DNA from: Paracoccaceae bacterium
Lineage (GTDB): Bacteria > Pseudomonadota > Alphaproteobacteria > Rhodobacterales > Rhodobacteraceae
Length of the DNA: 59,626 bases
Direction of reading: 5' to 3'
Assembly (NCBI GenBank): GCA_019090795.1
Contig: JAHRVG010000027.1
Coordinates: 1 to 59,626 of the forward strand
Position numbers and translations under genes: made by a program. The notes beneath the pieces are model-generated. The model did not search any database. It had not been told where the DNA came from and saw nothing but the letters and a program-made list of their open reading frames with translations. How positions within the stretch are numbered: the first letter of the stretch is position 1; each line of letters begins with the position of its first letter. This document shows, in pieces, positions 1,096-4,650 of the stretch.

Positions 1096-2886
1096 ATGCC
1101 TGATGATTTGACACTCGATCAAGAAAAACTGAACCAGAATCTCGAAAAAATCAATGCACTAACAGCTCGCATGATGGCCGCCCTTGCCGATCGAAAAGAA
1201 CATAACGCGGGCCTTGATGCACCTGACGCCCAATTCTACAAACGGGCTGCCGCCGCTTATTTTGCCGAGATGATCAGCGATCCGTCCCGAATTATGCAGG
1301 CACAAGTGGGGTTCTGGACCGAAAGTCTTAAGAACTGGTCCGATATGCAGCAGAATATTTCTGCGGATGAAGTTGGCGGACCGGTCGAACCAAACCGTGA
1401 CAGACGTTTTAAAAATGATAAATGGGACTCCAACCCCTATTTCAACATGATCAAGCGGCAGTACATGCTCTCGAGCAAGACAATTGAATCAATGACCTCT
1501 GGCCTGACCCACCTGCCAGAAAAAGAACGCGAGAAGGTCGAGTTTTTTGCCAAGCAGATCATTGATATGTTCGCGCCAACCAATTTTCTCGCCACCAATC
1601 CAGACGCACTCGACAAGGCGCTGGAAACCAATGGTCAATCACTGGTCGATGGCTTGGAAAATCTGGTGCAGGATCTAGAGAAAGACCAGAAAGGGCTTTC
1701 GATCACTTTGGCCCAACCCGATGCCTTTAAAGTGGGCAAAGATATCGGCGCAACCGAAGGGGCGGTGGTTTTCGAAAACCGCATGTTTCAACTGATCCAG
1801 TACACCCCAACCACTAAAAAAGTGTATGGTAAACCTCTGCTATTCTGCCCCCCATGGATTAACAAGTTCTACATTCTTGATTTACGGCAGACAAATTCGC
1901 TGGTGAAATATGCCGTGGATCAAGGGCATACAGTCTTCATGATTTCTTGGATCAACCCTGACGCCTCTTACGCCAATTGCGGTTTTGATGCTTATCTGGA
2001 GGACGGTTGGTTAAAGGCTCTTGATACAGTGCTCGAAATAACGGATCAGGACAGTGCCAATTGCCTCGGCTTTTGCATTGGCGGAACGTTGTTGTCCTGT
2101 GGTCTGGCCTATCTGACCGCAAAGAAACAGGATCACAAAGTTAACAAAGCAACCTTCTTGACGACCATGACCGACTTTTCCGAACCCGGTGAACTGGGTG
2201 CGTTTATTGATCCGGGTTTTATCGCAGGCATCAAGAAGGAAGTCGCAGAAAACGGTTGTCTGGATAAATATTTCATGTCCAAAACCTTCAGCTATCTTCG
2301 TGCCAATGATTTGGTTTATGGCCCCTCAGTGCGCTCCTATATGATGGGAGAGACTCCGCCGGTGTTTGACCTGCTGCAATGGAACAGCGATTCGACCAAC
2401 CTGCCGGGACGCATGGCGATAGAGTATCTGGAAAATCTTTATGACGAAAATCAGCTTATCAAGGGCGAGTTTGAAATGCTGGGCGAAACTCTGCGCTTGG
2501 CTGAAATCAACATCCCGATTTTTGCCATCTCCTCAGTTCAGGATCACATCGCGCCTTGGAAAAGCACCTTTAGGGGCTTGGCCAAAGTACGCGGAGAGCG
2601 TACTTTCGTTCTGTCCGAAAGCGGCCATATCGCTGGCATCGTGAACCCACCTGCCAAAAACAAGTACGGCCACTGGTATAACCCAGAGCCACCGCGCGAC
2701 CCAGATTTTTGGTTGGAAAATGCCGACTTCAAAAAGGAAAGCTGGTGGACCCGTTGGGGTGCATGGCTCAAGAATGATCAAAAACGGACAGTCGCCCCGC
2801 GAAAGACCGGCACCGAAAAATACCCCGTAATCGAGGCTGCTCCTGGACGTTACGTGCTTGACCAAGGTCTTTCAACAGCGCCATGA
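1096..2886 (+). CDS. phaC: Class I poly(3-hydroxyalkanoate) synthase
   Basis: PhaC polymerises (R)-3-hydroxyacyl-CoA, mainly 3-hydroxybutyryl-CoA, into PHA at the granule surface. The 596-residue length is right for a class I synthase. The lipase-like box is LGFCIGG with nucleophile Cys327; Asp483 in the QDHIAPW motif and His511 in ESGHIAG complete the triad. The alpha/beta-hydrolase domain covers roughly residues 230-560 and the N-terminal quarter is the variable region typical of PhaC_N proteins. No good Shine-Dalgarno sequence precedes this ATG, but the next in-frame Met is well inside the protein. phaZ diverges upstream and two phasin genes follow on the same strand after 150 bases. Confidence 0.97.
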   Translation: MPDDLTLDQEKLNQNLEKINALTARMMAALADRKEHNAGLDAPDAQFYKRAAAAYFAEMISDPSRIMQAQVGFWTESLKNWSDMQQNISADEVGGPVEPNRDRRFKNDKWDSNPYFNMIKRQYMLSSKTIESMTSGLTHLPEKEREKVEFFAKQIIDMFAPTNFLATNPDALDKALETNGQSLVDGLENLVQDLEKDQKGLSITLAQPDAFKVGKDIGATEGAVVFENRMFQLIQYTPTTKKVYGKPLLFCPPWINKFYILDLRQTNSLVKYAVDQGHTVFMISWINPDASYANCGFDAYLEDGWLKALDTVLEITDQDSANCLGFCIGGTLLSCGLAYLTAKKQDHKVNKATFLTTMTDFSEPGELGAFIDPGFIAGIKKEVAENGCLDKYFMSKTFSYLRANDLVYGPSVRSYMMGETPPVFDLLQWNSDSTNLPGRMAIEYLENLYDENQLIKGEFEMLGETLRLAEINIPIFAISSVQDHIAPWKSTFRGLAKVRGERTFVLSESGHIAGIVNPPAKNKYGHWYNPEPPRDPDFWLENADFKKESWWTRWGAWLKNDQKRTVAPRKTGTEKYPVIEAAPGRYVLDQGLSTAP

Positions 2887-2926: not shown

Positions 2927-2941
2927 TGCTGCAATGCAGCA
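2927..2941. promoter_or_regulatory. PhaR-type operator, upstream copy of phaP1
   Basis: TGCTGCAATGCAGCA is a perfect 6-3-6 inverted repeat that contains the CTGC-N3-GCAG core reported for PhaR binding in Rhodobacter and Paracoccus. It sits 29 bp upstream of a second copy (2956-2970), about three helical turns away. Confidence 0.8.
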
Positions 2942-2949
2942 TATTTCCC

Positions 2950-2978
2950 TTGCGTTGCCGCAATGCAGCATTTATAGT
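2950..2978 (+). promoter_or_regulatory. Probable sigma-70 promoter of the first phasin gene
   Basis: TTGCGT (2950-2955), a 17-bp spacer and TATAGT (2973-2978) lie about 60 bases before the first phasin ATG. The downstream PhaR-type palindrome (2956-2970) starts immediately after the -35 hexamer and fills the spacer, so repressor and RNA polymerase could not bind together. Confidence 0.65.
2956..2970. promoter_or_regulatory. PhaR-type operator inside the phaP1 promoter spacer
   Basis: TGCCGCAATGCAGCA differs by one base from the perfect upstream copy. It lies between the -35 and -10 hexamers of the phaP1 promoter. PhaR released from DNA when polymer or its oligomers are present would open this promoter; that step is family knowledge from Paracoccus and Rhodobacter. 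Confidence 0.75.
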
Positions 2979-3036
2979 TTAATCTATAGGCGGAAAACAC
3001 CGCCGCACTTTTTCACCTTCTTAAAGGATAGATACG

Positions 3037-3456
3037 ATGGCTAAACAAGATTTCGACTTCGCAAAAGCTACTCAAGATTTTTTGGGCGCTTTTAAGGTTG
3101 ACACCACTGTATTCGACGACGCTGTAAAAGGCGCGGCCGAATTCAACTCCAAACTGGTTAAAATCGCGCTGACATCAGCAAAGAAAAACGCCGATCTGAC
3201 AACCGCATGGACCGCCGAAACTCTGAAAAAAGTTGAAGCTGCCAACAAAGTGCAAAAGGAAGCTGGTGACTATGTCACTGTTGCTTCCGATTTGGCCACT
3301 ACACAGGTTCAGGCGCTGCCAGAAAAACTGTCCAACTATGTTGAAGTTGCCAAAGCTGCGCAAATGGAAGCTGTCGAGCTGTTCGCAGCCGCTGGTAAAG
3401 ACCTGCAAGCCGAGGCGGTTTCCAAGGTCAAAGAGGCAACAGCAAAAGCTGCTTAA
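3037..3456 (+). CDS. phaP: Phasin, granule-associated protein (copy 1)
   Basis: Phasins coat PHA granules and control their number and size. The 139-residue protein is almost all predicted amphipathic helix, has no cysteine, and opens with the phasin-like DFDFAKATQDFLGAFKVD. Its C-terminal half is rich in Ala, Lys and Glu, as expected for surface-binding helices. AAAGGA (3023-3028) is eight bases before the ATG. It resembles the next gene closely at both ends (DFDF at the N-terminus; VELFAAAGK near the C-terminus), so the two are probably a tandem duplication. The promoter carries two PhaR operators, and a strong terminator follows at 3488-3514. Confidence 0.93.
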   Translation: MAKQDFDFAKATQDFLGAFKVDTTVFDDAVKGAAEFNSKLVKIALTSAKKNADLTTAWTAETLKKVEAANKVQKEAGDYVTVASDLATTQVQALPEKLSNYVEVAKAAQMEAVELFAAAGKDLQAEAVSKVKEATAKAA

Positions 3457-3487
3457 TCTTTTATAGTTTCCTCCCAGAAACGCAGAA

Positions 3488-3514
3488 GGGTCGCTGTTCG
3501 CAGCGGTCCTTTTT
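3488..3514 (+). terminator. Intrinsic terminator after the first phasin gene
   Basis: A 9-bp stem (GGGTCGCTG with CAGCGGTCC, two G-T pairs) is closed by a TTCG tetraloop and followed by TTTTT. It ends two bases before the next PhaR operator, so this short spacer holds both the end of one unit and the control region of the next. Confidence 0.85.
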
Positions 3515-3516
3515 GT

Positions 3517-3531
3517 TGCTGCGATGCAGCA
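3517..3531. promoter_or_regulatory. PhaR-type operator, upstream copy of phaP2
   Basis: TGCTGCGATGCAGCA is a perfect 6-3-6 inverted repeat directly after the T-run of the phaP1 terminator. It is 26 bp upstream of the second copy at 3543-3557. Confidence 0.8.
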
Positions 3532-3536
3532 TTCCC

Positions 3537-3565
3537 TTGACTTGCTGCAGTGCAGCAAGTATAAT
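3537..3565 (+). promoter_or_regulatory. Near-consensus sigma-70 promoter of the second phasin gene
   Basis: TTGACT (3537-3542), exactly 17 bp, then a perfect TATAAT (3560-3565). One mismatch from consensus makes this one of the strongest promoter matches in the window, and its spacer is filled by a PhaR-type palindrome, implying a strong but tightly repressed promoter. Confidence 0.8.
3541..3559. promoter_or_regulatory. PhaR-type operator filling the phaP2 promoter spacer
   Basis: CTTGCTGCAGTGCAGCAAG is a perfect 8-3-8 inverted repeat whose core (3543-3557) occupies the spacer between the -35 and -10 boxes; the outer bases overlap the end of the -35 hexamer. It is the longest and most symmetrical of the four copies. 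Confidence 0.8.
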
Positions 3566-3596: not shown

Positions 3597-3989
3597 ATGT
3601 CCACCAACGATTTTGACTTTTCCAAAGCCGCCCAAGATTTCATGGCATCGATGAAATTCGACACCTCCGCCTTTGACGGCACAATGAAAAACGCTGCTGA
3701 CTTTAACGCGAAGCTTACCAAAATCGCGCTAGATGCCGCCAAACAAAATGCCGAACTGACAAGCACCTGGACGCAAGAGACCCTGAAAAAGGTAGAATCT
3801 CAGGCTGCCAGCGATCCGGCCGACCTGGCCAATGTTGCTGCTGCATTTTCGGCTGAACAATCCCAAGCCATGCAAGACAAATTCGCAGCCTTTGCTGAAG
3901 TAGCAAAAACTGCACAAGAAAAAACAGTGGAACTGTTCGCTGCTGCGGGCAAGGAAATGCAGTCCGAGGTTGCCAAGAAGACCAAATAG
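3597..3989 (+). CDS. phaP: Phasin, granule-associated protein (copy 2)
   Basis: A second granule-coat protein of 130 residues. The start at 3597 is set by AAAAGGA eight bases upstream and by the N-terminus MSTNDFDFSKAAQDFM, which matches copy 1; an earlier in-frame ATG would run through the promoter. It shares with copy 1 the central KIAL-AAK-NA-LT--WT-ETLKKVE pattern and the VELFAAAGK stretch near the C-terminus. All-helical, no membrane segment, no cysteine. Unlike copy 1 it has the stronger promoter. It is followed by a terminator and then phaR, so limited read-through could link phasin and repressor synthesis. Confidence 0.93.
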   Translation: MSTNDFDFSKAAQDFMASMKFDTSAFDGTMKNAADFNAKLTKIALDAAKQNAELTSTWTQETLKKVESQAASDPADLANVAAAFSAEQSQAMQDKFAAFAEVAKTAQEKTVELFAAAGKEMQSEVAKKTK

Positions 3990-4009
3990 TAACCTGCGAC
4001 GATGCAACA

Positions 4010-4038
4010 GGGGCACCACGCATCGGTGCCCCTTTTTT
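4010..4038 (+). terminator. Intrinsic terminator after the second phasin gene
   Basis: GGGGCACC (4010-4017) pairs with GGTGCCCC (4025-4032) across a seven-base loop, followed by TTTTTT. phaR starts about 40 bases further on, so phaR needs read-through or a weak promoter in this gap. Confidence 0.88.
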
Positions 4039-4077
4039 ATTTCGCAGTCTTGGGGTAAACTGCGCCATCCAAGCGAA

Positions 4078-4650
4078 ATGAGTGCCCCGATGTCAGAAAC
4101 CATCCTGATCAAACGCTACGCCAGCCGCCGCCTTTATAACACGCAAAGTAGTGAATACGTGACTCTGGATGAAGTCGCCGAACTCATCCGCGCTGGCGAA
4201 GAAGTCGAGATTCGGGATCGCAAAAGCGGCGACGACTTGACCCGCCAGTTTTTGCTGCAGATCATAACCGAACAACAATGCAAGGGTGAAAGCACATTGC
4301 CGATCAATGTGTTGACCGGATTGGTGCGGTCTTGCAATTCAAGTACTCAGAATATGCTCCCCGAATTTCTATCCCGCTCTTACGAGGCTTTCACTGAGCA
4401 ACAGGAAAAAATGATGAGTCGGTTGTCCGGCGGTCTGCCCAAGGGACTGACCCCGCAACTGGGCTTTGGCAGTGCGGCTGAATGGCAACAAAAGCAGACC
4501 GAGATTTACACTTCGATGATGCAGGCATTCATGCCTAAACCCACCACACCAGAGCCTGAAACCGCTGCGCCCGCCCCAGCGACCGCCGACGAAGTATCTG
4601 CCATCAAAGACCAACTGGCCGAGCTACAGCGCAAACTGGAAAACCTTTAA
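4078..4650 (+). CDS. phaR: PHA synthesis repressor PhaR
   Basis: PhaR represses phasin genes and binds PHA granules, so free repressor falls as polymer accumulates. The N-terminal DNA-binding domain is clear: LIKRYASRRLYNTQSSEYVT, then the conserved RDRKSGDDLTRQ (family PHB/PHA accumulation regulator). A helical region with Met-rich and Gln-rich segments follows, then a Pro/Ala-rich linker and a C-terminal coiled-coil-like segment (IKDQLAELQRKLENL). About 190 residues. Two in-frame ATGs (4078 and 4090) are possible; neither has a strong Shine-Dalgarno, and the first is taken. The four palindromes upstream of the phasin genes are its likely targets. Confidence 0.93.
   Translation: MSAPMSETILIKRYASRRLYNTQSSEYVTLDEVAELIRAGEEVEIRDRKSGDDLTRQFLLQIITEQQCKGESTLPINVLTGLVRSCNSSTQNMLPEFLSRSYEAFTEQQEKMMSRLSGGLPKGLTPQLGFGSAAEWQQKQTEIYTSMMQAFMPKPTTPEPETAAPAPATADEVSAIKDQLAELQRKLENL

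Follow-up and report, generated by a model that had tools for sequence, protein, structure and literature searches.

The two phasin genes of this Paracoccaceae bacterium lie directly upstream of a gene for a PHA synthesis repressor, which raises the question of where in the phasin promoters the repressor would bind and whether that position is a constant feature of such genes. The question was addressed in a stretch of 59,626 nucleotides (contig JAHRVG010000027.1), referred to here as the window, and by comparison with relatives within and beyond the Rhodobacteraceae.

Gene organization of the phasin locus

The genes are arranged in the order phaC, phaP1, phaP2 and phaR:

1096..2886, + strand: phaC, class I PHA synthase (TIGR01838, 709.7 bits against a cut-off of 622.65)
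3037..3456, + strand: phaP1, phasin, 139 aa (PF09361, E 8.1e-5, 23.2 bits; cut-off of 24.9 not reached)
3597..3989, + strand: phaP2, phasin, 130 aa (PF09361, E 2.8e-4, 21.5 bits; cut-off of 24.9 not reached)
4081..4650, + strand: phaR, PHA synthesis repressor, 189 aa (TIGR01848, 131.3 bits against a cut-off of 109.45)

The phaR product also scores above the cut-offs of PF07879 and PF05233, and the gene beside the phasins is the single TIGR01848 match in the whole genome. The protein shares 74% identity with a named-record relative from Amylibacter sp., and 73% and 63% with two from Rhodobacteraceae. The Phasin_2 scores of the phaP1 and phaP2 products fall 1.7 and 3.4 bits below the curated cut-off; homologues are similarly placed in 92 other loci of the family sample, and gene order and relatives together make it very likely that both products are phasins.

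Neither of the two palindrome pattern scans of the window revealed a PhaR-type site directly upstream of phaC, or a PhaR-type palindrome in the region from 3990 to 4080 that would point to autoregulation of phaR. PhaR-like palindromes occur immediately 5' of phaR in five of 26 relatives (L030, L087, L092, L093 and L134), starting approximately 29–37 bp ahead of the gene. These palindromes, which are absent from the window, suggest autoregulation in some relatives. At the contig start, positions 7–39 are what we take to be an exact copy of the Nextera read-1 transposase adaptor. A reverse-strand open reading frame at 19–1038, presumably encoding an intracellular PHB depolymerase, runs into this adaptor, and its C-terminus is therefore an assembly artefact.

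Architecture of the two phasin promoters

The promoter elements and candidate operators are the following:

2927..2941, no strand: distal predicted PhaR operator of phaP1, odd-centred palindrome TGCTGCAATGCAGCA, 7/7 pairs, just 5' of the -35 box
2950..2955, + strand: -35 hexamer TTGCGT of phaP1 (sequence; TTG at the same offset in 98/98 paired family promoters)
2956..2970, no strand: proximal predicted PhaR operator of phaP1, 6/7 pairs, within the 17-bp spacer
2973..2978, + strand: -10 hexamer TATAGT of phaP1 (sequence)
3483..3515, + strand: terminator-like hairpin 3' of phaP1 (-17.2 kcal/mol, z -4.75)
3517..3531, no strand: distal predicted PhaR operator of phaP2, palindrome, 6/7 pairs
3537..3542, + strand: -35 hexamer TTGACT of phaP2 (sequence and consensus scan)
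3540..3560, no strand: proximal predicted PhaR operator of phaP2, 21-bp odd palindrome, 10/10 pairs, core 3543–3557
3560..3565, + strand: -10 hexamer TATAAT of phaP2 (sequence and consensus scan)

The coordinates bear out the original prediction that both genes share one plan, in which an upstream palindrome is followed by a second one within a 17-bp spacer. The spacers, TGCCGCAATGCAGCATT at phaP1 (2956–2972) and TGCTGCAGTGCAGCAAG at phaP2 (3543–3559), each open with a 15-bp palindrome and are flanked by the predicted hexamers, TTGCGT and TATAGT in the first case and TTGACT and TATAAT in the second. The palindrome centres, at 2934 and 2963 upstream of phaP1 and at 3524 and 3550 upstream of phaP2, reproduce the predicted distances of 29 and 26 bp. 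The description of the palindromes as perfect holds for the distal phaP1 copy and the proximal phaP2 copy, but not for the proximal phaP1 and distal phaP2 copies, each of which has one unmatched pair. The proximal phaP2 operator does extend into the -35 hexamer, as had been proposed; it overlaps three of its bases (3540–3542) and one base of the -10 hexamer.

The phaP2 boxes match the consensus at 11 of 12 positions, and the promoter was listed by a consensus promoter scan of the window. The same scan missed the phaP1 promoter, which matches at 8 of 12 positions and at only 3 of 6 in the -35 box. The original prediction also proposed that both promoters are strong and that release of PhaR would give a sharp switch; the box matches are closer to such strength at phaP2 than at phaP1. 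Transcription is predicted from the family profile described below to start near 2984–2986 for phaP1 and at A3572 for phaP2. The hairpin that follows phaP1, which is absent from the scan listing that gave the phaP2 promoter, ends two positions short of the distal phaP2 operator, and phaP2 therefore probably relies on its own promoter.

Frequency of the sites in the window and the genome

The pattern TGCTGCNNTGCAGCA, with up to two mismatches allowed, is matched 14 times strand-wise in the window, where 3.5 would be expected (the maximum of 100 shuffles being 9), and eight of the 14 are the four phasin operators, each counted on both strands. The looser pattern CTGCN3GCAG is present exactly in three of the four operator copies and is one base off in the proximal phaP1 copy; with one mismatch it showed no window-wide enrichment (44 matches against 36.0 expected). 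The full promoter-plus-operator pattern has two matches without mismatch in the window, namely the phaP1 and phaP2 promoters, where 0.09 would be expected at three mismatches or fewer; two matches were obtained in one of 100 shuffles. Throughout the 3.63 Mb genome, fewer than three mismatches to this pattern were found solely at phaP1 and phaP2, and six further places have three. The reversed pattern, used as a control on the same genome, gave three matches at up to three mismatches and one at up to two.

Conservation of the operator register in the Rhodobacteraceae

The family sample comprised 120 genomes, 116 of which, the window's own included, have a PhaR match. Oriented phaR loci numbered 119 (115 other genomes, together with L001–L003 and the window), and 93 of them have a nearby homologue of the window's phasins, yielding 100 phasin promoters. 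The 26 loci that lack such a homologue were excluded from the promoter count, as were phasins located elsewhere there. Sites were called with a consensus derived from the window, and the TTG register played no part in the calling.

A pair of sites is present in 98 of the 100 family phasin promoters near phaR. The exceptions are the promoter of L047, where only 43 bp of contig remain upstream, and one of two at L082. The family promoters contain 191 sites at three or fewer mismatches, where single-base shuffles predict 1.1, and the place of the distal phaP1 operator is likewise occupied by a site in relatives. Alignment of the relatives' phasin promoters thus recovers the spacer-embedded palindrome in every paired promoter, as anticipated.

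A palindrome so placed might be retained as a part of the promoter itself, reflecting a preference of RNA polymerase for a certain spacer sequence, with no repressor bound. Its location between the TTG and the -10 box in 98/98 family pairs would accord with this explanation. Against it, a further copy of this palindrome stands upstream of the -35 box. A TTG lies exactly 6 bp 5' of the proximal palindrome in all 98 pairs, and at this distance from the distal palindrome in just one of 98. Moreover, phasin promoters of other families carry the palindrome outside the core promoter. A sequence preference of the promoter in place of an operator was rejected on the grounds of this recurrence outside the core promoter, and we regard it as barely conceivable.

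The distance between the two sites is 26 bp in 16 pairs, 27 bp in 7, 28 bp in 32, 29 bp in 28, 30 bp in 14 and 49 bp in one. In 97 of 98 pairs it thus falls within 26–30 bp, or approximately 2.5 to 2.9 helical turns; the 49-bp pair is most likely that of L059, which has a third site in between. In 39 pairs the proximal copy is closer to the consensus, in 18 the distal copy, and the remainder are tied. Placement of the -10 box is looser than that of the -35 box. In 78 of 98 pairs its best match falls at a spacer length of 17 bp, and in 52 a length of 19 bp scores best or equal best. The -10 hexamer has A as its second base in 97/98, the commonest -35 hexamer is TTGAAA (56/98), and a perfect TATAAT occurs in a single pair, that of the window's phaP2. 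A profile of 99 promoters, four pairings of which have since been revised, displays a C-A step at offsets 28–29 (74% and 79%), which suggests the transcription start.

A search of 20 relatives with the promoter-operator pattern at up to two mismatches gave 20 matches in 16 genomes, and two with the reversed control. Fifteen matches lie at a phasin near phaR, one (in G010) approximately 6 kb from phaR, and four elsewhere, each of the latter with two mismatches. The four relatives without a match all belong to the loci that lack a phasin homologue near phaR. The G010 match (C1:842657–842685) is a spacer-embedded site with one mismatch, and no such phasin adjoins phaR in that genome; the phasin may have moved away from phaR.

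Among 33 genomes labelled as the same genus, the pattern is present in 12 and was not found in the other 21. One of these 21, G263, departs from the family plan in having three PhaR-like sites, at distances of 23 and 21 bp (L280, 1960–2018); they precede a small gene adjoining phaR that, by eye, bears no close homology to the window's phasins. Genomes without a PhaR match were uninformative as a negative control; there are four of them, and three have a match at three or fewer mismatches. One of the genomes without a PhaR match, G098 (84% complete), contains the promoter-operator pattern with one mismatch.

Operator placement in other alphaproteobacterial families

The class set consisted of the best-scoring 90 of the Phasin_2 matches from 142 genomes, all from other families and with some genomes contributing more than one promoter. 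The same classifier was applied to these 90 and to the 100 family promoters, the spacer bin being defined as +10 to +17. In the family, 88 of 100 promoters have a spacer site, every one at +13 from the -35 box; of the remainder, three have a site over the start, one has neither and eight are unclassified, including the window's phaP1, whose -35 box is under the classifier threshold. By contrast, the spacer bin is empty in the 90 best-scoring class promoters. There, 51 promoters show a bracket plan, in which the two sites lie upstream of the -35 box and over the start, 12 have the start site only, 8 the upstream site only, and 19 are unclassified. Sites near the spacer bin occur in four class promoters, at +8 in three of them and at +20 in the other. 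In family and class alike, most distal sites lie between -17 and -13. Adjacent class spacings of up to 90 bp (n = 73) include 50 at 54–61 bp and 10 at 17–24 bp. The palindrome is strongly conserved inside the spacer in the family and lies mostly outside the spacer in the class, which suggests that the operator is the element under constraint.

A third placement was observed in L227, L233 and L248, from other families, in which the second palindrome overlaps a TTGACG -35 box. A loose paired-core pattern was also counted across the class, but this census, with a match in 96 of 289 genomes, was set aside, as many of its matches resemble chance and the reversed control also matches some genomes. 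All 61 genomes of an order-level sample belong to the window's own family, so that the change of plan cannot be dated from that sample.

Comparison with known PhaR systems

The arrangement is a known kind of PhaR switch that has already been described in other species. In Paracoccus denitrificans, PhaR is said to repress the phasin (work of Maehara, 2002).

The PhaR site of Rhodobacter sphaeroides, quoted as CTGCNNNGCAG (PMC12542648), agrees with the window sites, and phasin repression is reported for strain FJ1 (Chou and Yang 2010, via PMC12542648 and PMC7204398). At Bradyrhizobium diazoefficiens phaP1, where the start was mapped by 5'-RACE, footprinted PhaR sites lie on either side of the -35 box at a distance of 6 bp (PMC6201568). 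The two sites flank the -35 box as in the window, their 12-mers being 29 bp apart from start to start, but the proximal 12-mer begins 6 bp 3' of the -35 box there and 3 bp in the window. A further report places the two boxes 17 nt apart, with the proximal one said to overlap the -10 box, and finds that mutation of either weakens PhaR binding (PMC10888616). In Sinorhizobium meliloti, two palindrome copies flank the -35 box of phaP1 and phaP2, mutation abolishes the EMSA shift, and the phasin promoters are more active without phaR (PMC12542648). The likeness to the window extends to the copies of this PhaR (AniA) flanking the -35 box (21 bp in S. meliloti; 28 bp apart at its phaP2). The S. meliloti phaP1 copies are 18 bp apart, with arms unlike those of the window (for example GTGCAGTGCAC), and the proximal copies are listed at -47 from the start, so that they may cover the -35 box and the register may differ. 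Because the B. diazoefficiens phaP1 and S. meliloti phasin sites flank the -35 box, we gave up the notion of a spacer plan peculiar to the window's family, although the spacer bin is empty in the 90 class promoters. Ralstonia eutropha phaP1 resembles the window in its odd-centred palindromes, one of them directly upstream of the -35 box; its second site lies around the start instead of in the spacer, as in the class bracket plan, and steric hindrance has been proposed (PMC12849132). PhaR can also serve as an activator, as is reported for phaP3 in the same organism (PMC12849132).

No statement of a family-wide fixed register was found in the literature consulted; the original R. sphaeroides and P. 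denitrificans reports may give single-species cases. As the evidence in this organism comes from sequence alone, a regulator other than PhaR might bind the palindromes. The sites agree with those published for PhaR in R. sphaeroides, S. meliloti and B. diazoefficiens, and a phaR gene adjoins the phasins; both points speak against such a regulator, which we consider very improbable. We are highly confident that the four palindromes serve as PhaR operators in a PHB-sensing phasin switch of the ordinary type.

Proposed mechanism of repression

What this analysis observed directly is the sites with their register, the phaR gene close by and the conservation within the family. By analogy with the species above, we infer that PhaR binding, PHB titration and polymerase occlusion operate in this organism. 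When PHB granules are absent, free PhaR would occupy both palindromes of each phasin promoter. The spacer-bound repressor would lie across the stretch that separates the -35 box from the -10 box, extend partly over the boxes themselves and keep sigma-70 RNA polymerase off, and the distal copy would provide extra PhaR occupancy just upstream of the -35 box. As PHB accumulates, the granules would titrate PhaR and both phasin promoters would fire. In tet- and lac-based promoters, which employ repressors of other families, an operator in the spacer between the -35 and -10 boxes blocks the polymerase in this manner. Occlusion of RNA polymerase by PhaR, the steric repression of the original prediction, is well supported by analogy, given the adjacent phaR, the match to published sites, the footprints, EMSA and box mutations obtained for a similar arrangement in other species, and the invariant register of the 98 family pairs. 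Titration of PhaR by PHB has been described for several species (PMC12542648, PMC6201568).

The original prediction also called for cooperative binding. A PhaR tetramer might bridge the two sites cooperatively and give a steep response, in which case the pairing would matter as much as the spacer position. The B. diazoefficiens PhaR is probably a tetramer and both boxes seem to be required for full binding (PMC10888616), the binding of R. eutropha PhaR is sigmoid (PMC3570403), and the pair spacing in the family is confined to the narrow range given above. Conversely, this spacing slides over 4 bp and is not near whole helical turns, in contrast to the fixed proximal register, and either S. meliloti copy alone is enough for an EMSA shift (PMC12542648). 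The sliding distance of the distal site counts against a rigid, phased contact between the sites, and the 26–30 bp spacings lend no support to a helically phased placement. Cooperative binding therefore stays a proposal, and we hold the bridging tetramer to be possible, at somewhat less than an even chance. Occlusion from the spacer is the preferred reading.

Evolution of operator position

We lean slightly towards a history in which, in the ancestry of the Rhodobacteraceae, the downstream operator shifted by approximately 30 bp from the start to the spacer and was then fixed to the exact base, making spacer and operator one element. This reading is based on the bracket plan of 51/90 class promoters and of R. 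eutropha phaP1, set against the spacer register of 98/98 family pairs. The short-spaced pairs that flank the -35 box in B. diazoefficiens and S. meliloti run counter to a single clean move.

The window in itself is one further phasin pair of the PhaR type, and the family-wide comparison of register added here lifts the observation slightly beyond routine. With the same repressor and the same kind of target gene, it offers a natural case for relating operator position to repression, the contrast being between many families whose second operator overlies the start and another in which it holds a base-exact spacer position. The profile, approximately CTTGAAA-TGCTGCRNYGCAGCATG-YATAT, can be used to find candidate PHB-responsive promoters in Rhodobacteraceae.

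In L008 (G000:C97), positions 1501–1515 repeat the perfect distal phaP1 palindrome letter for letter, and a weaker second site follows 85 bp further on (1586–1600). The two sites lie upstream of a small gene that, by eye, has a signal-peptide-like start, and they possibly mark an additional PhaR target.
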